Assembly: GCF_010450875.1 (NCBI RefSeq)
Contig: NZ_CP048422.1
Coordinates: forward strand, 1,519,001 to 1,583,000
Reading direction: 5' to 3'
DNA length: 64,000 nt
Origin: Sphingomonas insulae
Lineage (GTDB): Bacteria > Pseudomonadota > Alphaproteobacteria > Sphingomonadales > Sphingomonadaceae
How positions within the stretch are numbered: the first letter of the stretch is position 1; every line of letters begins with the position of its first letter. Made by a program: the position numbers and the translations under genes. This document shows, in pieces, positions 5,069 to 63,236 of the stretch. Below the pieces are notes generated by a model. That model saw nothing but the letters and a program-made list of their open reading frames with translations. It did no database searches and was not told the DNA's origin.

Positions 5069-5186
5069 CGTCCGCCCTACCCAGATCGTCCAGGCGTTAG
5101 CCCGACGTTCCTCATCAGCGGGTTAACGACACCCCTTCGCTCTCTCGCTCGCGATCGTGCATTCCGCTTGCATGACTGTCTTCGAA

Positions 5187-5204
5187 GTGACACAACAATG
5201 TCAC
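5187..5204. promoter_or_regulatory. Palindromic site GTGACA-N6-TGTCAC
   Basis: A perfect inverted repeat lies between the divergent acyltransferase and TPR genes, 44 bases upstream of the TPR start. Spacing and symmetry suit a dimeric regulator of CRP/FNR or GntR type. No regulator gene is adjacent, so the binder is unknown. Confidence 0.4.
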
Positions 5205-5247
5205 AAAAGTGAAACCTGCCGTGAAGGCCGGGAAAGGAGACGATGCG

Positions 5248-16726: not shown

Positions 16727-17752
16727 TCAGGCGGCCTGCGCACTCCAGGTGCGGATCGGCGCGAGGCTGTCGAGAAACTGCGCCGCGCTGTTCGCCCAGG
16801 TGAAGCGCGCGGCGTAAGCGGCACAGGTGGCGCGATCGAGGGTCAACGCCCGGCGGATCGCGCCATCCAGATCGCGGTCGATCGCGCCGACCGTCGCGTC
16901 GAGGACATCGACCGGTCCCGGCGCGGGCAGCGCCGCTACCGGGGTGCCACAGGCAAGCGCCTCGATCATCACGAGCCCGAACGTATCGGTGAGGCTGGGA
17001 AAGACCAGCACGTCGGCGCTGCGATAGGCGGCCGCGAGCGCGTCGCCGAACTTGGGCCCGAGGAAATGCGCCTCCGGATAGCGCGCGGCAAGCCATGCGC
17101 GCGCCGGGCCATCGCCGACGACGACCTTGGTGCCGGCGGTACCGGCCGCCAGAAAGGCTTCGATGTTCTTCTCCACCGCGACGCGACCGACGTAGAGCAG
17201 GATGGGGCCAGCAAGCGCCTTGATCGTCTGGTCGGCAGGGCCGTCGGTGGAGAAGGTGGCAAGATCGACGCCGCGTCCCCAACGGCGCAGCCGGGCGAGA
17301 CCATGCCCGCGCAGCACGGTGTCGACCGAGGGCGTCGAGGTGAGGATCGCCTCCGCGGGCGTGTGAAACCAGCGGATGTAGCGCCAGATCCATTCCGCAT
17401 TCACGCCCGTGCGCGCGGCGACGTAATCGGGAAATTGCGTATGATACGCGGTGGTGAAGCGCATCCGTTCCGCCAGGCACCAACGGCGCGCGGCAAGTCC
17501 CAGCGGCCCTTCGGTGGCGATGTGGATCGCTTCGGCGCCAAAGGCGGCGATCAGCCGGCCGATGGTGCTGCGCCTTGCCAGCGCCAGGCGAATTTCCGGA
17601 TAGCTGGGACAGGGCAGGCTGGCGAAGCGATCGGGCGAGACGACCAGCAATTCATGCCCCTGCGCTTCCAGCTCGCGCTTGATCGAGGTGAGCGTGCGGA
17701 CGACGCCATTGACCTGCGGTGCCCAGGCGTCGGTGACGAGCGCGATCCGCAT
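16727..17752 (-). CDS. agt: Lipid glycosyltransferase, GT4 family (Agt-like)
   Basis: 341 residues from ATG 17752, whose A is also the last base of the upstream stop (TGATG). The fold is GT-B: MRIALVTDAWAPQVNGVVRTL at the N-terminus, PSYPEIRLAL, HIATEGPLGLAARRWCLAE, and the nucleotide-sugar part FVYVGRVAVEKN-like (LLYVGRVAVEKNIEAFL) and TDTFGLVMIEALACGTPVAA. This matches the glycosyltransferases that follow plcP in alphaproteobacteria and make glycosyl-diacylglycerols when phosphate is short. The sugar (glucose, galactose or glucuronate) cannot be read from sequence. The pairing with the upstream phosphatase-like gene is the main evidence for lipid substrate. Confidence 0.8.
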   Translation of the reverse strand: MRIALVTDAWAPQVNGVVRTLTSIKRELEAQGHELLVVSPDRFASLPCPSYPEIRLALARRSTIGRLIAAFGAEAIHIATEGPLGLAARRWCLAERMRFTTAYHTQFPDYVAARTGVNAEWIWRYIRWFHTPAEAILTSTPSVDTVLRGHGLARLRRWGRGVDLATFSTDGPADQTIKALAGPILLYVGRVAVEKNIEAFLAAGTAGTKVVVGDGPARAWLAARYPEAHFLGPKFGDALAAAYRSADVLVFPSLTDTFGLVMIEALACGTPVAALPAPGPVDVLDATVGAIDRDLDGAIRRALTLDRATCAAYAARFTWANSAAQFLDSLAPIRTWSAQAA

Positions 17753-18624
17753 CAGGCGGCGATCGCGGCGGCGCGCTCGGTCGTTTCGCGCTTGGCGATC
17801 TCGTCCGCCCAGTGGAGCAATTCCATGCGACCGTCGAAATGCTCGACCAGCGCGGTGCAGCCCTCCACCCAATCGCCATCGTTGTAATAGGCGACGTCGC
17901 CGATCTGGCGGATCTCGGCGGTGTGGATATGTCCGCACACCACGCCGTCGACGCCGCGCGACCCGGCGGCATGGGCGACTACCTCTTCGAAGTGCGAGAT
18001 GAAAGCGACCGCGTTCTTGACCTTGGCCTTGGCGTGCTTCGACAGCGACCAATAAGGCATGCCCAGCCGGCGGCGCGCGACGTTCAGCCACTGGTTGACC
18101 ACCATCAGCGCGGTGTAGGCGTTGTCGCCGATGAACGCGACCCAGCGGTGGGCGAGCGTGATCGCGTCGAATTCGTCGCCGTGCAGGACCAGCAGGCGAC
18201 GGCCGTCGGCGGTGATATGGATCGCCTTGCGCCGGACCTTCACCCCGCCGAAGTCCATGCCGGCGAACTGACGGAACATCTCGTCATGGTTGCCGGGGAT
18301 ATAGGTGACGCGGGTACCACGCTTCGCGCGCTTCATGATCCGCCAGACGACGTCGTTGTGCGCCGCCGGCCAGTAGAAGCGCTTTTTGAGCCGCCAGCCG
18401 TCGATCATGTCGCCGACCAGATAGAGCTGTTCGCTGTCGACATGGTCGAGGAAGTCGATGAGCATTTCGGCATTGCAGCCGCGGGTGCCGAGATGGACGT
18501 CGGAAATCCAGATCGTCCGGAAGCGGCGGCGGGCGCTGTCGGTCCGTTCCGGCGCCATCGGCCGCTGGGGAACGAAGGCGAGGATGTCAGCGGTCAGGTC
18601 GCCCATGCAATCGGTGGTGGTCAT
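17752..18624 (-). CDS. plcP: PlcP-like phospholipase C (LpxH-like metallophosphoesterase)
   Basis: 290 residues. Metal-binding motifs of the calcineurin-like family appear in order: SDVHLG (41-46), GDMIDGW (about 70), PGNHDE (about 107), HGDEFD (about 146) and CGHIHTAE (about 232), then YYNDGDWVE. Generic annotation would be UDP-2,3-diacylglucosamine diphosphatase. However, the sequence pattern (TRGCNAEMLIDFL, YWPAAHNDVVWRIMKR, LGMPYWSLSK) and the coupled glycosyltransferase match PlcP, which removes phosphate headgroups from membrane phospholipids under phosphate starvation. A Pho-box-like site lies 61 bases upstream. The loss of phospholipid would supply diacylglycerol for the next enzyme. 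Confidence 0.8.
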   Translation of the reverse strand: MTTTDCMGDLTADILAFVPQRPMAPERTDSARRRFRTIWISDVHLGTRGCNAEMLIDFLDHVDSEQLYLVGDMIDGWRLKKRFYWPAAHNDVVWRIMKRAKRGTRVTYIPGNHDEMFRQFAGMDFGGVKVRRKAIHITADGRRLLVLHGDEFDAITLAHRWVAFIGDNAYTALMVVNQWLNVARRRLGMPYWSLSKHAKAKVKNAVAFISHFEEVVAHAAGSRGVDGVVCGHIHTAEIRQIGDVAYYNDGDWVEGCTALVEHFDGRMELLHWADEIAKRETTERAAAIAA

Positions 18625-18685
18625 ATCGGCCCCCCGGAACGCGCTGTTCCTGGGAAAGCCTATGCCCGCGGCATGTTACGGCGCG

Positions 18686-18703
18686 GTCACGAACGCGTGA
18701 CGG
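18686..18703 (-). promoter_or_regulatory. Pho-box-like site upstream of plcP
   Basis: On the minus strand CCGTCAC-GCGT-TCGTGAC: two 7-mers with a 4-base spacer, the geometry of a PhoB site (CTGTCAT-N4-CTGTCAT). The same gene-facing site before pit reads CTGTCAC-GAAC-TCGTCAC; outside the spacer they differ at 2 of 14 bases. TAACAT follows 7 bases after the box as a possible -10. Confidence 0.6.
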
Positions 18704-18757
18704 ATGTGTTGCGGTCGACGATCCCGCGATCCCGCATCGGCAGGATCGTGGTCGGGA

Positions 18758-20395
18758 TCACCCCATCGTGGTTCGCAACACCGTCAGCAGGATCCAGTAC
18801 AGCGTGCCGGCCAGCAGCATCGCCGCGGGCAGGGTCATTACCCACGCGAGCGCCATGTTGCGGATGGTGCGCCACTGCAGGCCTGCGCCGTTCGCTACGG
18901 ACGCCCCGGCGACGCCGGACGACAGGATGTGCGTCGTCGACACCGGCATGCCGAAGCGTTCGGCGAGCAGGATCGTCGCGGCGGTCATCAACTCGGCCGA
19001 CATGCCCATGCCATAGGTGAGATGCGTCTTGCCGATCCGTTCGCCGACGGTGACGACGATGCGCCGCCAGCCGACCATCGTGCCGAGGCCGAGCGCGATC
19101 GCCACCGTGACCTTCACCCACAACGGGATGTAGCGCGTGCCCTGTTCCAATGCGCGGCCATAGCCTTTGATGCCCTGGATTTCCTGTGCGGTGAAACGGG
19201 CCTGCGCGCCTTCGTCGGCGACGACCATCTTGCTGGCATCGAGGACGAGGTACATGTCGCCGCGCAGATTGGGCGTGGCGGCGGCGGGGACCTTGCCGAG
19301 CGAGCCGTAGCTGGCAAGCCGGTCGCCGACGTCGCGCGACAGCGACGACAGCGCGCCGTACATCGCCTGCGTATCGACGCGGCGGGCGGCGAGACCCTGC
19401 GTCACCGTCGCGCGGGCAACGTCGATCGAGGTCGGCTCCGGCCCCGGCTGGCGGGCGAAGATGACCTCCGCCGCGCGCGCCTGCTGGACGAACGCCGGCG
19501 TGGCGCTTTCCGGCACTGTACGGTTGAGCGCATAGGCGGTGGGGGCGCAGCCGATCAGGATGAGCATGATGAGGCCCATGCCCTTCTGTCCGTCGTTGCC
19601 GCCGTGCGCGAAGCTGACCGCGGTGCAGGTGAGGATCAGCGTCGCGCGGATGCCCTTGGGCGGCGGCGCGTTGGTGTCGGGTGCCCGGTATAGCTTGGGA
19701 TCGCGCAGGAAGCGCTTCATGACGAGCAGCAGCAGCAGCGCACCGCCGAAGCCGATCAGCGGGCTGACCATCAGCGCCGACAGCACCTTTTCCGCCTGAT
19801 GCCAGTCGACGCCCGATGTGCCGCCGGTGTTCGACAGCATCTGGTTGGCGACGCCGACGCCGAGGATCGACCCGATCAGCGCGTGGCTGGAGGAATTGGG
19901 TAGGCCGACATACCAGGTCGCCAGGTTCCACAGCACGGCGGCCAGCAGCAGGGCGAAGATCATCGCGAATCCGCCTGCCGATCCGATGTGCAGGATCAGT
20001 TCGACCGGCAGCAGCGTGATGATAGAATAGGCGACCGCGCCTGAGGACAGCAGCACGCCGAGGAAGTTGAAGAAGCCGGACCACACCACGGCCAGCGGCG
20101 CGGGCATGGCATGCGTATAGATCACCGTGGCGACCGCGTTCGCAGTGTCGTGGAAGCCGTTGACGAATTCGAACCCCAGCGCGATCAGCAGTGCGAGGCC
20201 GAGGAACAGGAATACGCCGGTCGCGAGCGTTTCGCCCACCTCTGCGGTATCGGCGATAATGCTGACGCCGGCATAGCCGAGCGCACCGACCAGCACGGCG
20301 AGGAAGATCCAGCGTCCCGCAGGATGCAGGTGTCCATCGAGCCGCGGGCCGTGGGCAGCCGGGGCGGGAGATGCTGCGGAGACCATGGTAGCCAT
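18758..20395 (-). CDS. pit: Low-affinity inorganic phosphate transporter, Pit/PHO4 family
   Basis: 545 residues. The repeated PHO4 signatures are present: GFEFVNGFHDTANAVAT in the first half and AVSFAHGGNDGQKGMG then MPVSTTHILSSG in the second. About ten membrane helices. A soluble region of about 150 residues (around 290-430) separates the halves, with a Ser/Asp-rich central part; this is longer than in E. coli PitA. It moves metal-phosphate with protons across the inner membrane. A Pho-box-like site lies 24 bases upstream of the ATG, and plcP-agt follow 133 bp downstream on the same strand. Confidence 0.94.
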   Translation of the reverse strand: MATMVSAASPAPAAHGPRLDGHLHPAGRWIFLAVLVGALGYAGVSIIADTAEVGETLATGVFLFLGLALLIALGFEFVNGFHDTANAVATVIYTHAMPAPLAVVWSGFFNFLGVLLSSGAVAYSIITLLPVELILHIGSAGGFAMIFALLLAAVLWNLATWYVGLPNSSSHALIGSILGVGVANQMLSNTGGTSGVDWHQAEKVLSALMVSPLIGFGGALLLLLVMKRFLRDPKLYRAPDTNAPPPKGIRATLILTCTAVSFAHGGNDGQKGMGLIMLILIGCAPTAYALNRTVPESATPAFVQQARAAEVIFARQPGPEPTSIDVARATVTQGLAARRVDTQAMYGALSSLSRDVGDRLASYGSLGKVPAAATPNLRGDMYLVLDASKMVVADEGAQARFTAQEIQGIKGYGRALEQGTRYIPLWVKVTVAIALGLGTMVGWRRIVVTVGERIGKTHLTYGMGMSAELMTAATILLAERFGMPVSTTHILSSGVAGASVANGAGLQWRTIRNMALAWVMTLPAAMLLAGTLYWILLTVLRTTMG

Positions 20396-20418
20396 ATCAT
20401 CGCCGGTGGACCCGCAAT

Positions 20419-20436
20419 GTGACGAGTTCGTGACAG
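20419..20436 (-). promoter_or_regulatory. Pho-box-like site upstream of pit
   Basis: On the minus strand CTGTCAC-GAAC-TCGTCAC, close to the PhoB consensus of two CTGTCAT repeats 4 bases apart. It ends 24 bases before the pit ATG. That is close enough that PhoB might repress rather than activate from it, as no room remains for a normal -10 downstream unless the start codon is later. Confidence 0.65.
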
Positions 20437-55236: not shown

Positions 55237-56328
55237 CTATTCCTCGGTCCGGATCAGCACCGCTTCGCCGATCAGCAGGAACAGCAGGAACGGCGCCCAG
55301 GCGGCGAGGAACGGCGGATAGGCCCCCAGATTGCCCATCGCCAGCGCGAAATTGTCCGCGACGAAATAGGCGAAGCCCAGCGCCATGCCGATCACCGCGC
55401 GCACGAACAGCTGCCCCGAACGGGCGATGCCGAAGGCGGCGACGGCGCCAAGCAGCGGCATCAGCACCGCCGATAGCGGGCCCGAGAACTTGTGCCACAG
55501 CGTGCCTTCCAGCGACTTGGTCGGCCGGCCGGCATCGCGCAGGTCGCCGATCGCCGAGGCGAGCTGCGCGAAATCGAGCCCCTCGGGATTGACCTTGCCA
55601 AGCGTGAACTGATCGGGCCGGACGCCCGGCGCGACCTTGACCGTGCCGAGGTTGGCGAGCTTGCCGGTCGCCACGTCGAAGCGGGTCGCCGGGCTGATCG
55701 CCCATCCATCGCCCGCATGGCGGCCCTGCGGCGCGCGGATGATCGCGACCAGCTCGCCGCCCGTGCGGTCGTAGACCGTGACGGTGCCGAGCTGCGTCCG
55801 CTCGCCGCGGCCGCGCACCTGCTGCACCGCGATCAGATCGTCGCCGTCGCGGACCCACACGTTGGTCCGCTCGCCCCGGTCGATCGGCAGCGGGCCGTAG
55901 TCGACGTCCTTCCACTGGTCCAGCGTCGCGGTGGCGCGCGTGACGATCCGCTCGTTGAACGCGAAGCTGACCGCGGCGACACCCAGGCTGGCGACGAGCA
56001 GCGGCGCGAGCACCTGATGCGCCGACAGACCCGCCGCCTTCAGCGCGATGACCTCGCTGTTCTGGTTCATCGTGATGAGCGTCAGGATCGTGCCGAGCAG
56101 CACCGAGAAGGGCAGGAGGAACGCGACGATCTGCGGCGCGCGCAGCCCGACATATTGCCACACCTGCGCCTGCGTATTGCCGGGATGCGCCAGGATCGCG
56201 CCGGATTCGCTGAGCAGGTCAAGCGTCTGCAGGATCAGCAGCAGCGCGGCGAGCAGGCCGAACGTCCGCACCAGGAACATGCGGCCCATGTAGATCGCGA
56301 CGGTCCGCGACGGAAAGAAGCTGGTCAT
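55237..56328 (-). CDS. lptG: LPS export permease LptG (YjgP/YjgQ family)
   Basis: 363 residues. The N-terminus ALYMGRMFLVRTFGLLAALLLILQTLDLL-like (AIYMGRMFLVRTFGLLAALL) and NSEVIALKAAGLSAHQVLAPLLVASLG are LptG marks. Six membrane helices are placed around a periplasmic beta-jellyroll. LptF and LptG, with LptB ATPase and LptC, pull lipid from the inner membrane to the Lpt bridge. Its ATG overlaps the lptF stop by 4 bases. The cargo in sphingomonads, which replace LPS by glycosphingolipid, is a real question. Confidence 0.93.
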   Translation of the reverse strand: MTSFFPSRTVAIYMGRMFLVRTFGLLAALLLILQTLDLLSESGAILAHPGNTQAQVWQYVGLRAPQIVAFLLPFSVLLGTILTLITMNQNSEVIALKAAGLSAHQVLAPLLVASLGVAAVSFAFNERIVTRATATLDQWKDVDYGPLPIDRGERTNVWVRDGDDLIAVQQVRGRGERTQLGTVTVYDRTGGELVAIIRAPQGRHAGDGWAISPATRFDVATGKLANLGTVKVAPGVRPDQFTLGKVNPEGLDFAQLASAIGDLRDAGRPTKSLEGTLWHKFSGPLSAVLMPLLGAVAAFGIARSGQLFVRAVIGMALGFAYFVADNFALAMGNLGAYPPFLAAWAPFLLFLLIGEAVLIRTEE

Positions 56329-57521
56329 GCCGCGGCTCCCTTCTTGCGACCCCGGCCGGGCAGGTAACGGGTCAGCAGCTTGAAGACCTTCGAGAAGCCG
56401 CGCTCCAGCGCGCCGATCGGCTGGCCGCCGGGAACGTAGGCGATCTGATAATACATCCAGAGGATGATCCCGGCAAAGATGCAGAACGGCACCCAGAGGG
56501 CGACCAGCGGGTCTATCCGGCCCAGCTCGCCGATCGACGCGGCATATTCGTTCACCTTGTGATAGGCGACGATCATCACGATCGCCAGGAACACGCCGAA
56601 GCCGGAATTGGACCGCTTCGGCGGTACGCCGAGGGCGATGGCGAGCAGGGGCAGCAGGAACATCGTCGCCACCTCGACCAGCCGGAAATGGAATTCCGAC
56701 CGGCTGCTGGCGCGCTGTTCCTCGCTTGCCGATGCGTGACCCAGCTTGGCCAGTTCCGGCAGCGTGAATTCTAGGTTGCGGCCGCCGCGCTGGCGGAAAT
56801 TCTCGTAGCGGGGCAGCGGGATCGGCAGGTCGTGGCTGGTGAACGTCAGCACGCGCGGGACGGTGAAATTGGGTGCCTTGTGCACCAGCGTGCCCTTGGT
56901 CAGGCGAAAGATGATCGTGTTGGGGTCGTCGGTCGCCAGGAACTGGCCGGATTGCGCGGTGACCGAATAGCTGGTGCCCTTGTCGTTGTAATAGACGAAG
57001 ATGCCGTCCAGCTTGCGGCCCTTGTCATGGCTCTGCTCGATGCGCAGCGTCATGCGGTCGCCAAAATGGGTGAATTCGCCCACCTTGATCGATGCGCCCA
57101 GCGCGCCGGTGCGCAGTTCGAACCGCAGCTGCTCGTAATAATAGCGGGCCTTGGGCTGGACGAAGCCGACGATGGCGATGTTCAGAGCCGCCAGGATCAG
57201 CGCGTACATGAACGGCACGCGCAACATCCGCGTATAGCTGACGCCGACCGCGCGCAGCACGTCGAGTTCGGAATTCGCCGCCAGCCGCCGAAACGCCAGC
57301 AGGATACCCAGCAGCAGCCCGATCGGAATGCCCAGGCCGAGATATTCAGGCAGCAGGTTGGCGAGCATCCGCCAGACGACGCTGATCGGGCCGCCTTCCG
57401 TGGCGACGAAGTCGAACAGGCGGCGGATGCGGTCGAGCACCAGCAGCATGGCGGCGATCGTCAGCGTCGAAAACAACGGCAGCGCGATCAGCCGGGCCAT
57501 GTAGCGGTCGAGGGATGTCAT
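56325..57521 (-). CDS. lptF: LPS export permease LptF (YjgP/YjgQ family)
   Basis: 398 residues. DRYMARLIALPLFSTLTIAAMLLVLDRI starts the first helix pair; LGIPIGLLLGILLAFRRLAANSELDVLRAVGVSYTRM is the conserved coupling region, and HFRLVEVATMFLLPLLAIALGVPPKRSNSGFGVF opens the second set of helices. A cytoplasmic C-terminal tail ends RYLPGRGRKKGAAA, strongly basic. It is first in a coupled lptF-lptG pair, as in most proteobacteria without lptC nearby. Confidence 0.93.
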   Translation of the reverse strand: MTSLDRYMARLIALPLFSTLTIAAMLLVLDRIRRLFDFVATEGGPISVVWRMLANLLPEYLGLGIPIGLLLGILLAFRRLAANSELDVLRAVGVSYTRMLRVPFMYALILAALNIAIVGFVQPKARYYYEQLRFELRTGALGASIKVGEFTHFGDRMTLRIEQSHDKGRKLDGIFVYYNDKGTSYSVTAQSGQFLATDDPNTIIFRLTKGTLVHKAPNFTVPRVLTFTSHDLPIPLPRYENFRQRGGRNLEFTLPELAKLGHASASEEQRASSRSEFHFRLVEVATMFLLPLLAIALGVPPKRSNSGFGVFLAIVMIVAYHKVNEYAASIGELGRIDPLVALWVPFCIFAGIILWMYYQIAYVPGGQPIGALERGFSKVFKLLTRYLPGRGRKKGAAA

Positions 57522-57627
57522 GCGGGAAGGGGCTCGGGCCGGGACGGGAAGCGTGCGGTATAGGCGCAGGGCAGGCGGGCGTCAGCTAGAAAAGCCTTGC
57601 TGGACCCGGCCGGGTCATACCCTCCGG

Positions 57628-59526
57628 TCACTCGGCCGCGATCTGCTGCGGCGGGGCAGGGCGTTCGCTCGCCATCGCCCGGCCGATCGCCCGCTCCAGC
57701 CCGACGAGGGTGAAGGGCTTGCGCAGCAGCTGGTGCATGCCGAACTCGCTGGCGTTCGCCTCGCCGGCGAACCCGGTGACGAACAATATTGCGATGTGCG
57801 GGTAGTGCGGGCCGATGCCGGCGATCATTTCCGGTCCGGTCTGCCCGGGCATGAGGACGTCGGAAATGATGAGGTCGATGCCATCATGCGCGGCGAGCAA
57901 TCCCATTGCCTTGCCGGGCGCATCGCAGGCGATACCATGGTGGCCGAGTTCCTCCAGCGCCCCCATCGTCGCCGCCAGCACGCGCGGGTCGTCCTCGACC
58001 ACCAGCACCTGCAAGCCCTCCGGGACCGGTTCTGCCGGCGCGATATCGATGACGGCCGCATGGTCCGGCGCGGTCGTTGCGGTGTCGCGCGGCAGATAGA
58101 GGGTGACGGTGGTACCTTTGCCCGGCGCGGTATCGATCGTGATCGCGCCCGCCAGCTGACGGACCAGCGCAAAGATCTGGCTGAGCCCCAGCCCGGTGCC
58201 CTTGCCCGCCTCCTTAGTGGTAAAGAACGGTTCGTAGACGCGCTCGACGACGTCGGGCGTCATGCCGGTTCCATCGTCGGTGACCGCCAGCGTGACATAA
58301 TCGCCCGCCGCGCAATGATCGACCTGATGTTCGGCCAGCGTCGCCATGCCGGTCGCGATCACCATCCGGCCGCGCCCGTTCATCGCGTCGCGCGCGTTGA
58401 CCGCCAGGTTCAGCACCGCATTTTCCAGCTGCACCCGATCGGCCCGCACCCGCCATCCGCACGCCTCGTTGCGGGTGACGACGGTGATCGCATCGCCCAG
58501 CGTCCGGTCGAGCAGTTCCGACATGCCGGATACCAGCTGTGCCGCCGCGATCGGTTCGGGTTTCAACGATTCCTCGCGGCTGAACGCCAGCAGTCGCCGG
58601 GTCAGCGCCGCCGCGCGATTGGCGCCATCGGCGGCATTGTCCAGATGGCGCGCAACGGCGGCGGGATCGCTGGCGACGGCACGCTTCGCCAGTTCCAGCC
58701 CGCCGAGAACGACCGCGAGCATATTGTTGAAATCGTGCGCGATACCACCGGTCAACTGGCCGACCGCCTCCATCTTCTGCACCTGGCGCAGCTTGGCTTC
58801 CTGCACCCGCAATTCGTCGGTCGCCTGGCCTACCGCCGCCGACAGCTCTTCGGCACGTTCGCGCTCCGCATCGGCCTCGGCCTGCGCCAGCGCCCGTTCG
58901 CCGACCGCCTGAAGCGTGAACCACCCGAGCACCAGCGCGCCGAGCACGATCAGCACGCCGAAGATCGCGAGCACCCCGGCGATGCGGCTCGACCGGTCGA
59001 CGGTGCGCATCGCATCGGCCGTGCGGGCATCCAGCAGCGCCCGCTCGCCGGAAATGATCTCATCCAGCGTCCGGTCGATCGCCGCCAGCGTCGGCGACTG
59101 GCGCGCCTTGTAATAGCGGGCGAGTGCCTGGCTGTTCTTGCCATACGTGGTGCTGAGCGCCGTCAGCGACAGCTCGGCGCCCCGCTGCATATAGGCGGTG
59201 CGCAGCTGGGCGACGCGGGCACTCTGTTCGCCGGTCGCCTGCGTCAGCCGCTCCAGCCGGCCCAGCTGCGTGCCGGCCAGCCGCCACTGGTCGAAATAGA
59301 TCTGGCCGAGTTCCTGCTCCGCCTTGCCGCTGATGACGTAGCGGCCCAGCGACGCCTCCGACCGCGCGATCGTGCCCGACACCGTGCGGGCGAGGATCAT
59401 CACGTCGTAACTATGGGCCTGCGCCTGCAGCGCCCGGTCGCGCTGGCGGTTGGCCTCTCCCAGCGTCAGGATAAGCGCGACCAGCACCGCCGCGCCGAGC
59501 AGACCCATCACGACCAGCGTGATCAT
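57628..59526 (-). CDS. Hybrid sensor histidine kinase with receiver domain
   Basis: 632 residues; an in-frame stop upstream (near 59575) limits the start. TM1 (1-25) and TM2 (about 182-205) enclose a helical CHASE3-like sensor. A coiled coil (AQAEADAERERAEELSAAVGQ) leads to HisKA with the phospho-His in QLTGGIAHDFNNMLAVVLGG, ATPase motifs NAVLNLAVNARDAM (N), DDGTGMTPDVVERVYEPFFTTK and GTGLGLSQIF (G), then a receiver with VLVVEDD and phospho-Asp in LIISDVLMPGQTGPEM. The signal and partner are unknown; it stands beside spt but has its own 113-bp gap. Confidence 0.94.
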   Translation of the reverse strand: MITLVVMGLLGAAVLVALILTLGEANRQRDRALQAQAHSYDVMILARTVSGTIARSEASLGRYVISGKAEQELGQIYFDQWRLAGTQLGRLERLTQATGEQSARVAQLRTAYMQRGAELSLTALSTTYGKNSQALARYYKARQSPTLAAIDRTLDEIISGERALLDARTADAMRTVDRSSRIAGVLAIFGVLIVLGALVLGWFTLQAVGERALAQAEADAERERAEELSAAVGQATDELRVQEAKLRQVQKMEAVGQLTGGIAHDFNNMLAVVLGGLELAKRAVASDPAAVARHLDNAADGANRAAALTRRLLAFSREESLKPEPIAAAQLVSGMSELLDRTLGDAITVVTRNEACGWRVRADRVQLENAVLNLAVNARDAMNGRGRMVIATGMATLAEHQVDHCAAGDYVTLAVTDDGTGMTPDVVERVYEPFFTTKEAGKGTGLGLSQIFALVRQLAGAITIDTAPGKGTTVTLYLPRDTATTAPDHAAVIDIAPAEPVPEGLQVLVVEDDPRVLAATMGALEELGHHGIACDAPGKAMGLLAAHDGIDLIISDVLMPGQTGPEMIAGIGPHYPHIAILFVTGFAGEANASEFGMHQLLRKPFTLVGLERAIGRAMASERPAPPQQIAAE

Positions 59527-59639
59527 CCGCCAGGCTGCGTCGCCTCCCAGGGCCCCCCCGGGACCGTCTCGGCGTCATCCCGCGTCACGGCAACGATGCT
59601 AACGCGTTTCGTGGCGCCTGAAAAGCGCCCGCGGGGGCG

Positions 59640-60902
59640 TCAGCCGATCGCGCCCACGGCCTGTCCCGCGGCTTGGAACTTGGCCAATACGGTGTCGAGT
59701 TGTGCCGCGCTGTGTTCGGCGCACAGGGAACATCGCAACAGGAACGTGCCGGCGGGCGTCGCGGGCGGGCGCGCCATGTTGACGTAGACACCCGCTTCCA
59801 GCAGCCCCTGCCACATCGCGACCGCCTGTTCCTGGTCGTCCAGGATCACGGCGACGATCGCGCTGTCCGGGGCATCAGTGCCGAGGCGGAAGCCCATCGC
59901 CTTCAGCCCGCCGTGCAGCTGGCGCGCATTCGCCCACAATTGGTCGCGCTTGGCATGCGCGGTCTTCAACTTGCGGATCGACGCCGCAGCGGTAGCGACC
60001 ACCGACGGCGGCAGGCTGGCGGTAAAGATATACGGGCGGCAGGCGAGGCGGATCGCCTCGAACTTCGGGTGGTTCGAAACGCAGAACCCGCCGACCGTAC
60101 CGACCGATTTCGAAAAGGTGCCGACGACGAAATCCACATCCGCCTCCAGGCCCTGCGCTTCGTAGACGCCGCGACCGTTGGGACCATAGAAGCCCATCGA
60201 ATGCGCCTCGTCGGACAGGACCATCGCCCCATGCTTCTTGGCGACGGCGACCATGTCCTTGAGCGGCGCGATATCGCCCAGCATCGAATAGACGCCTTCG
60301 AGCACCACCAGCTTGCCCGCCTCGGCGGGCAGGCGGCCGAGGCGCTTGTCGAGGTCCTCGACGCTGTTGTGGCGGAAGCGGACGATCTCGGCGACGCCCT
60401 GTTTGCACCCGTCGTAGATCGAGGCATGGCTGTCGGCATCGAGGATGACGTATTCCCCCTTGCCGACCAGCGTCGAGATCATGCCGAGATTGGCCATGTA
60501 GCCGGTCGAGAACACGATCGCGCCGGTGGTGCCGTAGAAGTCGCGCAGCGCCGCCTCGGCTTCCATATGGTCGCGGAAGGTGCCGTTCAGCATGCGGCTG
60601 CCGTTGGTGCCCGAACCGAATCGTTCCAGCGCGGCATGGCCGGCGGCGATGACGTCGGGGTCGAACGTCATGCCCATGTAATTGTAGGTGCCGAGCAGGA
60701 TCGTGTCGCGACCGGCGATCACCGCCTCGGTCGGCGACCGGACCTCGTCCATCACGATCGCGAACGGGTCGGTGACGCCGGTGTCGATCAGCGCCTGGCG
60801 TTCGGCGATCAGGCCGTCGAACTTGCTCATCAGGTCGCGTTCCGGCGCGACCGGCGCCGGGTTCATGTCGAGCGCCTCGGGCTGCAGGCCGGTCTCGGTC
60901 AT
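59640..60902 (-). CDS. spt: Serine palmitoyltransferase
   Basis: 420 residues, the length of the Sphingomonas enzyme. PLP marks are YNYMGMTFDPDVIAAGHAALERFGSGTNGSRMLNGT, YVILDADSHASIYDGC, SDEAHSMGFYGPNGRGVYEAQGLE, and the PLP lysine in VVGTFSKSVGTVGGFCVSNHP (near 275). It condenses serine with an acyl thioester to give 3-ketosphinganine, the first step of sphingolipid synthesis, in the cytoplasm. It lies one base after the acyl carrier protein gene, so its acyl donor is probably the acyl-ACP from that neighbour. Confidence 0.97.
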   Translation of the reverse strand: MTETGLQPEALDMNPAPVAPERDLMSKFDGLIAERQALIDTGVTDPFAIVMDEVRSPTEAVIAGRDTILLGTYNYMGMTFDPDVIAAGHAALERFGSGTNGSRMLNGTFRDHMEAEAALRDFYGTTGAIVFSTGYMANLGMISTLVGKGEYVILDADSHASIYDGCKQGVAEIVRFRHNSVEDLDKRLGRLPAEAGKLVVLEGVYSMLGDIAPLKDMVAVAKKHGAMVLSDEAHSMGFYGPNGRGVYEAQGLEADVDFVVGTFSKSVGTVGGFCVSNHPKFEAIRLACRPYIFTASLPPSVVATAAASIRKLKTAHAKRDQLWANARQLHGGLKAMGFRLGTDAPDSAIVAVILDDQEQAVAMWQGLLEAGVYVNMARPPATPAGTFLLRCSLCAEHSAAQLDTVLAKFQAAGQAVGAIG

Positions 60903-61189: not shown

Positions 61190-62092
61190 CTATAGCAGCC
61201 CGTTGGCGCGATACCATCGCGCGGTTGCGGCAAGGCCCTCCGCCAGCGGGACGGACGGTGTCCAGAGCGCGGGCGGCGGGCGGTGCGACGGCCGGGCGGT
61301 CCAGTCGGGGTGGACGAGATAGCCGACCCGGTCGGCGGTGAGCTTCGCTTCGTCGCCGCGCAGCGCGCGATCCAGCGTCGCGCCCAGCATCAGTGCTTGG
61401 CGGGGCAGGTGCAGCGCCAGCACGCGGTCGCGGCCGACCGCGCGGCCGATGGCCTGCGCCAGCGCGGCGTGGCTCAGCGCATGGCCATCGTCGACCTCGT
61501 ACAGTGTCGGCGGCACTGCGCGTGTCGCCAGCGTCAGCAGCAGCGTCGCCAGGTCGTCCACCGCCACCAGCGACACCAGCCCGCGCGGCGGCAGCAGCGC
61601 GATGCCCCAGCGGGCGGCGCGGAACAGGTCGCGCATCTCCATGTCGCCGGGCCCGTAGACGCCGCTCGGCCGGACGATGCTCCAGTCGAGCCCGCTGCGC
61701 TCGACCAGCGTTTCCCCCTGCGCCTTCGACCAGCCGTAGGTCGACAGCTGCGGTTCGCGCGCGGAAAGGGACGAGACATGGACGAATCGGCGCACGCCCG
61801 CCCCCGCCGCGGCGGCAAGCATCGCCCGCGTACCATCGACATTGCCGGCGACGAACGCCGCGCGATCGGGCGCGCTGACCACGCCGGCGACATGCACGAC
61901 CGCATCGGCCCCGTCGACGAGCGCGGCGAGGCTGCCCGGCCGATCCAGTGCACCCTCGATCCAGTCGACGCCGTCGCGCGGCGCTTGTGATCGCCGCGTC
62001 AGCGCCCGCACCCGGTGGCCCGCCGCGATCACCTGGTCGACGAGCGCGCGGCCGACGAAGCCGGTCGCACCCGTGATCGCGAGCGTCGTCAT
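61190..62092 (-). CDS. cerR: NAD-dependent epimerase-fold protein, CerR-like ceramide reductase
   Basis: 300 residues from ATG 62092. Rossmann loop TGATGFVGRALVDQVIAAG, then VVHVAGVVSAPDRAAFVAGNVDGTRAML, and STYGWSKAQGETLVER with the Tyr-x3-Lys pair of SDR enzymes. Extended SDRs of this type sit between proB and acp-spt in sphingolipid producers and reduce the 3-keto group of the sphingoid base or ceramide. Placement and size support that role; generic annotation would be NAD-dependent epimerase. Acp starts 43 bases after its stop. Confidence 0.82.
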   Translation of the reverse strand: MTTLAITGATGFVGRALVDQVIAAGHRVRALTRRSQAPRDGVDWIEGALDRPGSLAALVDGADAVVHVAGVVSAPDRAAFVAGNVDGTRAMLAAAAGAGVRRFVHVSSLSAREPQLSTYGWSKAQGETLVERSGLDWSIVRPSGVYGPGDMEMRDLFRAARWGIALLPPRGLVSLVAVDDLATLLLTLATRAVPPTLYEVDDGHALSHAALAQAIGRAVGRDRVLALHLPRQALMLGATLDRALRGDEAKLTADRVGYLVHPDWTARPSHRPPPALWTPSVPLAEGLAATARWYRANGLL

Positions 62093-62132
62093 ATCGCCGG
62101 CCCGCTTCCCCGGCGCGGGGGCGGGGCTATCG

Positions 62133-63236
62133 TCACACCAGCGCCATGTGGTTGCGATGCACCAGCGCGCTCCGCGGGGCATAGCCGAGGATCGCCGCCT
62201 GCTCGTCCGAACGCGTCCCCACCAGCCGTATCGCGTCGCCCGCGTCATATTCCGACAGTCCGCGCGCCAGCGGGCCGTCCGGGCCGTTGATCGTCACCAG
62301 GTCGCCGCGTGCGAACGCACCCTCGATCCGCGTCACTCCCGCCGCGAGCAGGCTGCTGCCGGCGGTCAGTGCCCGGGCCGCGCCGGCATCGACGTGCAGT
62401 GCGCCGCGCGCGGTCAGTCCGCCGGCCAGCCAGGCCTTGCGCGCGGTGGCGGCGCGTTCCGCCACGAACAACGTGTGTAGCTGTTCGCCGGCGAGCGGAT
62501 GGTCGAGCCGGCCGCTGGCGATGGCGAGGTGCGCGCCTGCCGCCGTCGCGATCCGCGCCGCCGCGATCTTCGACACCATGCCGCCGGATCCCATGCCCGA
62601 TGCGGATCCGCCGTCCGCCATGTCGGCCACGGCATCGATCCGCTCGACCATCGCGACGTGCCGTGCGTCCGCATGGGTATGCGGATTGGCATCGTACAGG
62701 CCATCGACGTCCGACAGCAGCACCACGCCCTGCGCGCCTGCGGCCTGTGCGACGCGTGCCGCGAGCCGGTCGTTGTCGCCGAACCGGATCTCTTCCGTCG
62801 CCACGCTGTCGTTCTCGTTGATGACCGGCACCACGCCCAGCCCGAGCAGTCGCCCCAGCGTCGCCGCCGCGTTCAGGTAGCGGCGCCGGTCCTCCAGATC
62901 GTCGAGGGTCACCAGCATCTGCGCTGCGGTCAGGCCATGGTCGCCGAGCAGCTCGGCCCAGGTCTGGCTGAGCGCGATCTGCCCGGTCGCGGCGGCGGCC
63001 TGCGCATCCTCCAGGCTGGCGCGTCCTCCCCTGGCAAGGCCGAGCCGGCGCGCACCCAGCGCAATCGCCCCGGACGACACGATCGCGACCTGCTGCCCCG
63101 CCGCGACCCGCGCGGCGATATCCGCCACCAGGGTCGCCAGCCACGCCCGCCGCACCGCGCCATCCGGCGTCACGAGCAGCGCCGATCCGACCTTGACGAT
63201 CAGGCGGGGACAGGCGGAGGGCGGAAAGAGGGTCAC
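62133..63236 (-). CDS. proB: Glutamate 5-kinase
   Basis: 367 residues starting at GTG 63236, which shares a base with the obgE stop (TAGTG). The amino-acid-kinase domain has LIVKVGSALLVTPDGAVRRAWL, IVSSGAIALGARRLGL, VPVINENDSVATEEIRFGDNDRLAARVA and GTGGMVSKIAAARIATAAG-like (GSGGMVSKIAAARIA). A C-terminal PUA domain starts near 275 (ARALTAGSSLLAAGVTRIEGAF). It catalyses the first step of proline synthesis. It is in the middle of an operon with obgE before it and cerR-like gene 40 bases after. Confidence 0.96.
   Translation of the reverse strand: MTLFPPSACPRLIVKVGSALLVTPDGAVRRAWLATLVADIAARVAAGQQVAIVSSGAIALGARRLGLARGGRASLEDAQAAAATGQIALSQTWAELLGDHGLTAAQMLVTLDDLEDRRRYLNAAATLGRLLGLGVVPVINENDSVATEEIRFGDNDRLAARVAQAAGAQGVVLLSDVDGLYDANPHTHADARHVAMVERIDAVADMADGGSASGMGSGGMVSKIAAARIATAAGAHLAIASGRLDHPLAGEQLHTLFVAERAATARKAWLAGGLTARGALHVDAGAARALTAGSSLLAAGVTRIEGAFARGDLVTINGPDGPLARGLSEYDAGDAIRLVGTRSDEQAAILGYAPRSALVHRNHMALV

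Follow-up and report, generated by a model that had tools for sequence, protein, structure and literature searches.

A predicted PhoB-controlled plcP-agt lipid-remodelling operon beside a long phosphate transporter gene in Sphingomonas insulae

We analysed a 64,000-nt stretch of the Sphingomonas insulae genome (assembly GCF_010450875.1, contig NZ_CP048422.1, positions 1,519,001–1,583,000)—the window, whose own positions serve as coordinates below—in which a long gene for an inorganic phosphate transporter, pit, is followed by a phosphoesterase gene, plcP, and a glycosyltransferase gene, agt. The best explanation for this locus, and one that we consider highly probable, is that plcP and agt form a PhoB-controlled operon for remodelling membrane lipids. 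The identity of the genes, the families in which they fall, the conservation of the pair, the conserved repeats of Pho type, and a PhoB gene scoring above its cut-off were all observed directly, in a host genome (3.74 Mb, with a computed completeness of 100%) where family searches detected neither LpxC nor LpxI. The first-pass annotation of this DNA had placed pit, the phosphoesterase, a GT4 glycosyltransferase and a TGATG junction at 16727–20436, and all were present as described, in the order pit, plcP, agt, with all three genes on the minus strand at the positions that it gave; its end point, 20436, coincides with the outer boundary of the pit Pho box. The features are as follows:

16727–17752, minus strand: agt, 341 aa, predicted diacylglycerol glycosyltransferase with Pfam GT4 domains
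17750–17754, minus strand: TGATG stop/start overlap of plcP and agt, read from the sequence (TGA at 17754–17752, ATG at 17752–17750)
17752–18624, minus strand: plcP, 290 aa, predicted phospholipase C-type metallophosphoesterase (Pfam Metallophos)
18659–18664, minus strand: -10-like CATAGG, a putative promoter element 10 bp past the last plcP half-site
18675–18714, minus strand: Pho ladder before plcP, with four 7-bp half-sites spaced 11 bp apart (CCGCAAC, CCGTCAC, TCGTGAC, CCGTAAC)
18758–20395, minus strand: pit, 545 aa, long inorganic phosphate transporter (Pfam PHO4, 299.6 bits)
20419–20436, minus strand: pit Pho box CTGTCAC-GAAC-TCGTCAC, 24–41 bp upstream of the pit start codon

By its sequence, the product of 17752–18624 is a PlcP-type phosphoesterase rather than LpxH, with a predicted activity that converts phospholipid to diacylglycerol (DAG). 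It is encoded once in the host genome and retains the phosphoesterase motifs intact (DVHLG at residue 42, GDMIDGW at 71, GNHDE at 111, HGD at 148, and GHIH at 231). Among named records, it is 51.4% identical to a Sinorhizobium meliloti homologue, 54.5% to one of Pseudomonas aeruginosa, and 79.4% to one of Sphingomonas parapaucimobilis; identity to four LpxH proteins was 19–24%. The first-pass annotation had proposed phylogeny as a test, asking whether the protein would fall inside true LpxH clades. In a maximum-likelihood tree of 107 rows, six LpxH proteins formed a single clade (support 100/100, branch length 9.07). The window protein lay opposite, with the S. meliloti and P. aeruginosa PlcP proteins and all other PlcP rows on its side; the program warned of long branches and an unsettled bootstrap, the reference PlcPs are not gathered in a single group among the other rows, and one row (L222, 10 aa extracted) was dropped. 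GNHD was found in 101/101 usable sequences on the PlcP side, and GNRD in all six LpxH proteins.

Automatic annotation would tell another story, in which the protein is a true LpxH of lipid A synthesis and its neighbour an envelope-sugar transferase. The likeness to LpxH consists of the metallophosphoesterase domain, weak matches to LpxH models and to LpxH in the PDB, and the name itself: UDP-2,3-diacylglucosamine diphosphatase, the label foreseen in the first-pass annotation, is attached to 24 of 32 matching plasmid-collection records from relatives, the other eight carrying no feature. However, the scores against two NCBIfam LpxH models (44.0 bits against a cut-off of 134 and 39.0 against 190.35) lie far below the curated equivalog thresholds, and the clade is separate, with GNRD where the window protein has GNHD. 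An LpxH would also require a lipid A pathway, and neither LpxC nor LpxI was found in the host genome by a family search that covered these two lpx genes with positive controls; with no LpxC found, there is therefore no de novo lipid A substrate on which an LpxH could act. Because of the scores, the clade, the motif and the missing LpxC and LpxI, we rejected LpxH as the identity of this protein, and an LpxH role is very unlikely; we give the combined scenario of lipid A synthesis and envelope-sugar transfer a negligible chance. This corrects a routine misannotation, that is, an LpxH name in a genome where no LpxC was found.

The adjoining gene, 16727–17752, encodes a GT4 protein that is of the Agt type by sequence and a predicted DAG glycosyltransferase, whose expected products are monoglucosyldiacylglycerol (MGDG) and glucuronosyldiacylglycerol (GADG). 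Both uridine diphosphate (UDP)-sugar motifs, GRVAXEKN and FPSXTDTFG, are matched exactly (GRVAVEKN at residue 189 and FPSLTDTFG at 251), and residues G16, G82, G85, H104, R190, K195, D256, T257, F258, G259, and E264 are present. Compared with GTcp, the Agt of Candidatus Pelagibacter HTCC7211, which is known here by its description in the available part of PMC8231724, the window protein shares the His-Asp dyad (His104-Asp256), both UDP-sugar motifs and the named donor residues, keeping 13 of the 14 key positions that could be mapped; 11 of these positions have the same number in both proteins, and three (Thr162, Arg163, and Trp320) were placed by reading the alignment. In a tree of 100 rows, one group (support 96/98) includes the window protein, the P. 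aeruginosa Agt1-type row, and two Agt-like rows of Rhizobiaceae, from Rhizobium and Shinella; outside it fall the P. aeruginosa Agt2-type row and five GT4 rows from the host's own genome. Several of the own-genome rows are partial or very long-branched, four rows (L193, L203, own_L039, and own_L042) were dropped for length, and Agrobacterium Atu2297, Phaeobacter Agt, and GTcp are not present in the tree by name. Together, the two trees, the motifs and the conserved adjacency of the genes bear out the first-pass proposal that the phosphoesterase and the GT4 protein are a plcP-agt pair.

A glycosyltransferase acting on ceramide, so that the pair yields a glycosphingolipid and not a glycoglycerolipid, also deserves consideration here. 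Sphingomonads make glycosphingolipids, a serine palmitoyltransferase gene lies within the same window, and Caulobacter forms a glycosphingolipid under phosphate starvation through two glycosyltransferases of the PhoB regulon, according to the portion of PMC6445935 available to us. On the other hand, the window protein belongs to the DAG-type Agt group of the tree, its partner PlcP is expected to produce DAG, and the relevant section of a 2026 study of Novosphingobium (PMC13318209, section 3.5) describes a cluster of Agrobacterium-like glycosyltransferases that stands apart from the ceramide glycosyltransferases Sgt1 and Sgt2 in a published network and that its authors considered an improbable contributor to the making of glycosphingolipids. 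On balance, ceramide as the acceptor seems to us distinctly improbable.

The pairing of plcP with agt is conserved and is no chance association. Matches to plcP were found in 108/149 genomes of the family and 117/289 of the class, where some matches are weak or partial. For the family we fetched 100 loci out of 107 genomes with a match other than the host's own (not taken: G143, G078, G135, G085, G097, G063, and G007); for the class, 60 loci picked to span the range of identities from 113 matching genomes belonging neither to the host nor to its family; and as named loci, the best 80 of 478, which lean to close relatives because of this choice. Among those best 80, the nearest named relatives by plcP identity are Sphingomonas aquatilis (90%), S. 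liriopis (89%), and S. melonis (88%). The agt gene lies directly downstream of plcP in 99/100 family loci (in the remaining one it is 646 bp distant), in 54/60 class loci (five of the others have no agt in the stretch at all), and in 79/80 named loci, the eightieth of which ends just past plcP. In one family genome that was not fetched (G007), only pieces of plcP were seen, at two places, as if the gene were broken or frameshifted.

The placement of pit is another matter. It was found near plcP in 0/100 family loci and 1/60 class loci, there on the opposite strand, and directly upstream of plcP in six of the 80 named loci—those of S. aquatilis, S. liriopis, S. melonis, strain RIT328, S. beigongshangi, and strain MA1305—counts that include one family, one class, and three named loci with under 2.5 kb available upstream of plcP. 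Being upstream in 6/80 named loci, those of the host's closest relatives, and in 0/100 family loci, pit beside plcP is unusual, and the order pit-plcP-agt looks like the arrangement of one clade, that of S. melonis and S. aquatilis. In the window itself, the first-pass statement that plcP and agt directly follow a Pit phosphate transporter holds, with pit on the same strand and 133 bp upstream of plcP. This Pit scored 411 bits against the PitA model, under the curated 800, and the host genome additionally encodes a short Pit in an open frame of 334 aa. The long form was found in 6/79 family genomes including the host's, one of the six with an internal stop. Pho scores (defined below) for five long-Pit relatives were at least 19 in two, 17 in one, and at most 16 in two, after exclusion of rows L257–L261 from this comparison for partial alignments or mis-set starts.

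Predicted Pho-type repeats stand before both plcP and pit and are conserved, and both are candidate sites for PhoB, which the host genome encodes (337.2 bits against a curated cut-off of 296.2). We scored such sites with ad hoc weights rather than a trained matrix, on the consensus CTGTCAT-N4-CTGTCAT as printed in the available parts of PMC8528852 and PMC3131613, as two 7-bp units with 11-bp spacing. The pit box is the only two-unit site to score 22, the best in the window across 127,966 positions on both strands of the 64 kb; a pattern search for it returned one match, against a mean of 0.01 in shuffles. In all six relatives with pit upstream, the top site of the locus begins 40–51 bp before pit, and in one of them the same repeat lies one 11-bp unit further upstream. 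The sequence TGTCACGAACYCGTCACAT at the pit box is conserved in all seven species, while most of the surrounding sequence cannot be aligned, except for a following GTSCACCG-like stretch.

Before plcP, the four half-sites form a ladder with the top four-unit score of the window on either strand (33; the next is 31), and a matching ladder occurs in 7/7 species (the host and the six relatives with pit upstream), 90–127 bp before the predicted plcP start; its score was reached by 0–2 of 1000 shuffles per species, which permuted non-overlapping two-letter blocks and are not true dinucleotide shuffles. A YATR-type motif occupies the place of CATAGG in the alignment of the six relatives. The spacing from ladder to CATAGG is what we take to be that of a PhoB-activated promoter, and by this spacing the ladder looks like an activator-type site. 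Upstream of plcP in the family loci, a score of 18 was reached on the coding strand in 56/100 and on the opposite strand in 10/100 (p = 2.6e-12), and in the named loci in 39/79 and 18/79, respectively (p = 0.0008); control windows reached this score in 2.6% of 5288 cases, a weak control, being mostly coding DNA. A generic scan for sigma-70 promoters and terminators gave one promoter-like site (0.5 expected) and two terminator-like sites (1.9 expected), none of them in the gap between pit and plcP. Separately, visual inspection of the alignment shows what seems to be an inverted repeat of about 60 bp in S. liriopis (L276), located between its pit gene and plcP ladder. The second-best four-unit ladder of the window, at about 5165–5220 on the plus strand (31.0 at 5176), precedes a plus-strand frame near 5244 whose product apparently starts with a signal peptide.

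The following account of how the operon might work is modelled on characterised systems, as regards what the two enzymes do and make, where PhoB binds, and whether it activates or represses. When phosphate is scarce, PhoB would bind the ladder and turn on plcP and agt; PlcP would then strip phosphorylated head groups from membrane phospholipids to leave DAG, to which Agt would add glucose and/or glucuronic acid from UDP-sugars, so that MGDG and GADG form and phosphate is released. Within the S. melonis/aquatilis clade, the long pit upstream, with a Pho box of its own, would probably be set by PhoB too, in either direction. Several points weigh against this picture. A plcP match is missing from 41/149 family genomes, and the pathway is therefore dispensable. 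At the acceptor site of Agt, the alignment puts Gly159 where GTcp has Thr162. The four-unit ladder test was chosen post hoc, after inspection of the sequence, and the two-unit score shows no strand difference in the named loci at the strictest threshold of 22 (7/79 vs. 6/79) or in the class loci (18/60 vs. 15/60, p = 0.68), while at the plcP promoter of the window it is 18.0 forward and 18.5 reverse. Given this failure of the two-unit score at the class level and at this promoter, we base the Pho claim on the four-unit ladder together with the footprint shared by seven species.

How pit is controlled relative to plcP-agt bears on whether the three genes are one block, as the first-pass annotation had called them. 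Their adjacency and shared strand stand, but co-induction does not follow, since pit has its own Pho box near the start codon and may be repressed. Transcription of all three genes together from the pit promoter would fit the common strand, the gap of 133 bp, and the lack of any match in the terminator scan of that gap. Nevertheless, the gap holds the conserved Pho ladder and the -10-like motif of plcP, its length varies from 102 to 279 bp across the six relatives (measured from aligned ends), and pit was undetected beside plcP in 100/100 family and 74/80 named loci. S. meliloti orfA-pit also argues against co-induction: as recounted in the accessible text of a Rhizobium leguminosarum paper (PMC3131613), it is repressed on starvation for inorganic phosphate and has a PHO box just upstream of its putative translation start. 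A single operon from the pit promoter is thus not favoured, and we regard it as rather unlikely. Because the Pho box lies so close to the pit start codon, as in orfA-pit, repression is a fair reading, and PhoB may, by this analogy, repress pit. For the S. melonis/aquatilis clade, we tentatively raise the possibility, itself on the doubtful side, of a compact two-way switch, in which PhoB in starved cells would activate plcP-agt through the ladder while shutting off the adjacent long Pit from a site just ahead of its start codon. If so, the route of uptake and the composition of the membrane would switch in concert, and would do so in a cell that shows no detectable lipid A synthesis and has a betaine-lipid route.

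Returning to the proposed plcP-agt operon, one of its closest known counterparts is PA3219-PA3218 (plcP-agt1) of P. aeruginosa, which makes MGDG under low phosphate, has a Pho box in front, and encodes an Agt1 that when purified uses UDP-glucose only, as reported in the sections of PMC8528852 at hand. Order and direction are as in the window, with identities of 54.5% and 51.7%; the copy compared here (L033) is a plasmid record, equated with PA3219/PA3218 by gene order only, and differs in having no pit upstream. P. aeruginosa further differs in having a second glycosyltransferase, Agt2, for GADG. A plcP-agt mutant of Methylosinus lost GADG and retained MGDG (from the available portion of PMC9239053). 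Within Sphingomonadales, the order of the host, Erythrobacter sp. NAP1 (type 2 arrangement of Sebastian et al.) has agt downstream of plcP and gains MGDG, GADG, and the betaine lipid diacylglyceryl trimethylhomoserine (DGTS) on phosphorus starvation (PMC4796936); this comparison is by description rather than by sequence, and no gene deletion in NAP1 features in the part of that report available. The host genome parallels the DGTS of NAP1 with a btaA-type gene (DUF3419/PF11899; L360, C4:2341124–2342233) that scores 363.9 bits, over its cut-off. Because a methyltransferase gene adjoins btaA, DGTS is a probable second phosphorus-free lipid of the host; the candidate Pho box before btaA is weak, with a score of 16.5. 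The S. meliloti homologue of PlcP, which we take to be SMc00171, lies on the same side of the tree as the window protein but has no agt within the 12.7-kb stretch around its gene, which is two genes from that of an acyl-homoserine-lactone synthase.

The first-pass annotation had thought further phosphorus-free lipids in a sphingomonad notable, which overstates the case, because the pair is common in the family, remodelling has been published for Erythrobacter NAP1, and an Agrobacterium-like glycosyltransferase cluster has been named in Novosphingobium. The plcP-agt pair itself is real but largely ordinary, and already in print for the order. A literature search over titles and abstract openings, with most subscription journals outside its scope, returned no account of how plcP-agt functions in Sphingomonas itself. 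The feature that appears new is the placement of pit, specific to one clade, together with two conserved Pho sites, which give directly testable predictions. The locus suggests that phosphate drives the remodelling of glycolipids in Sphingomonas, where glycosphingolipid takes the place of lipopolysaccharide (LPS); if true, the membrane's need for phosphorus would be lowered beyond the saving already made by the sphingolipid leaflet.

Elsewhere in the window, genes for LptG (55237–56328) and LptF (56325–57521), both over their NCBIfam cut-offs, lie near the serine palmitoyltransferase gene (59640–60902; 791 bits against a cut-off of 670). With neither LpxC nor LpxI found in this genome, the two permeases of the LPS exporter may have been retained to serve some other lipid, glycosphingolipid for example. 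The stretch from lptF to the palmitoyltransferase gene holds, on the minus strand, a gene for a hybrid histidine kinase (57628–59526) with CHASE3, HisKA, HATPase_c, and receiver domains. A 755-aa frame on the plus strand (57520–59787) runs antisense to it, matches nothing in Pfam or NCBIfam, and is probably no gene; LptD was ruled out as its identity on account of this antisense position. Beside the palmitoyltransferase gene lies a minus-strand gene for an epimerase-like protein (61190–62248), for which a role as a ceramide-pathway reductase would be a guess, and upstream of that gene, also on the minus strand, is one for an amino-acid kinase with a PUA domain (62133–63236).

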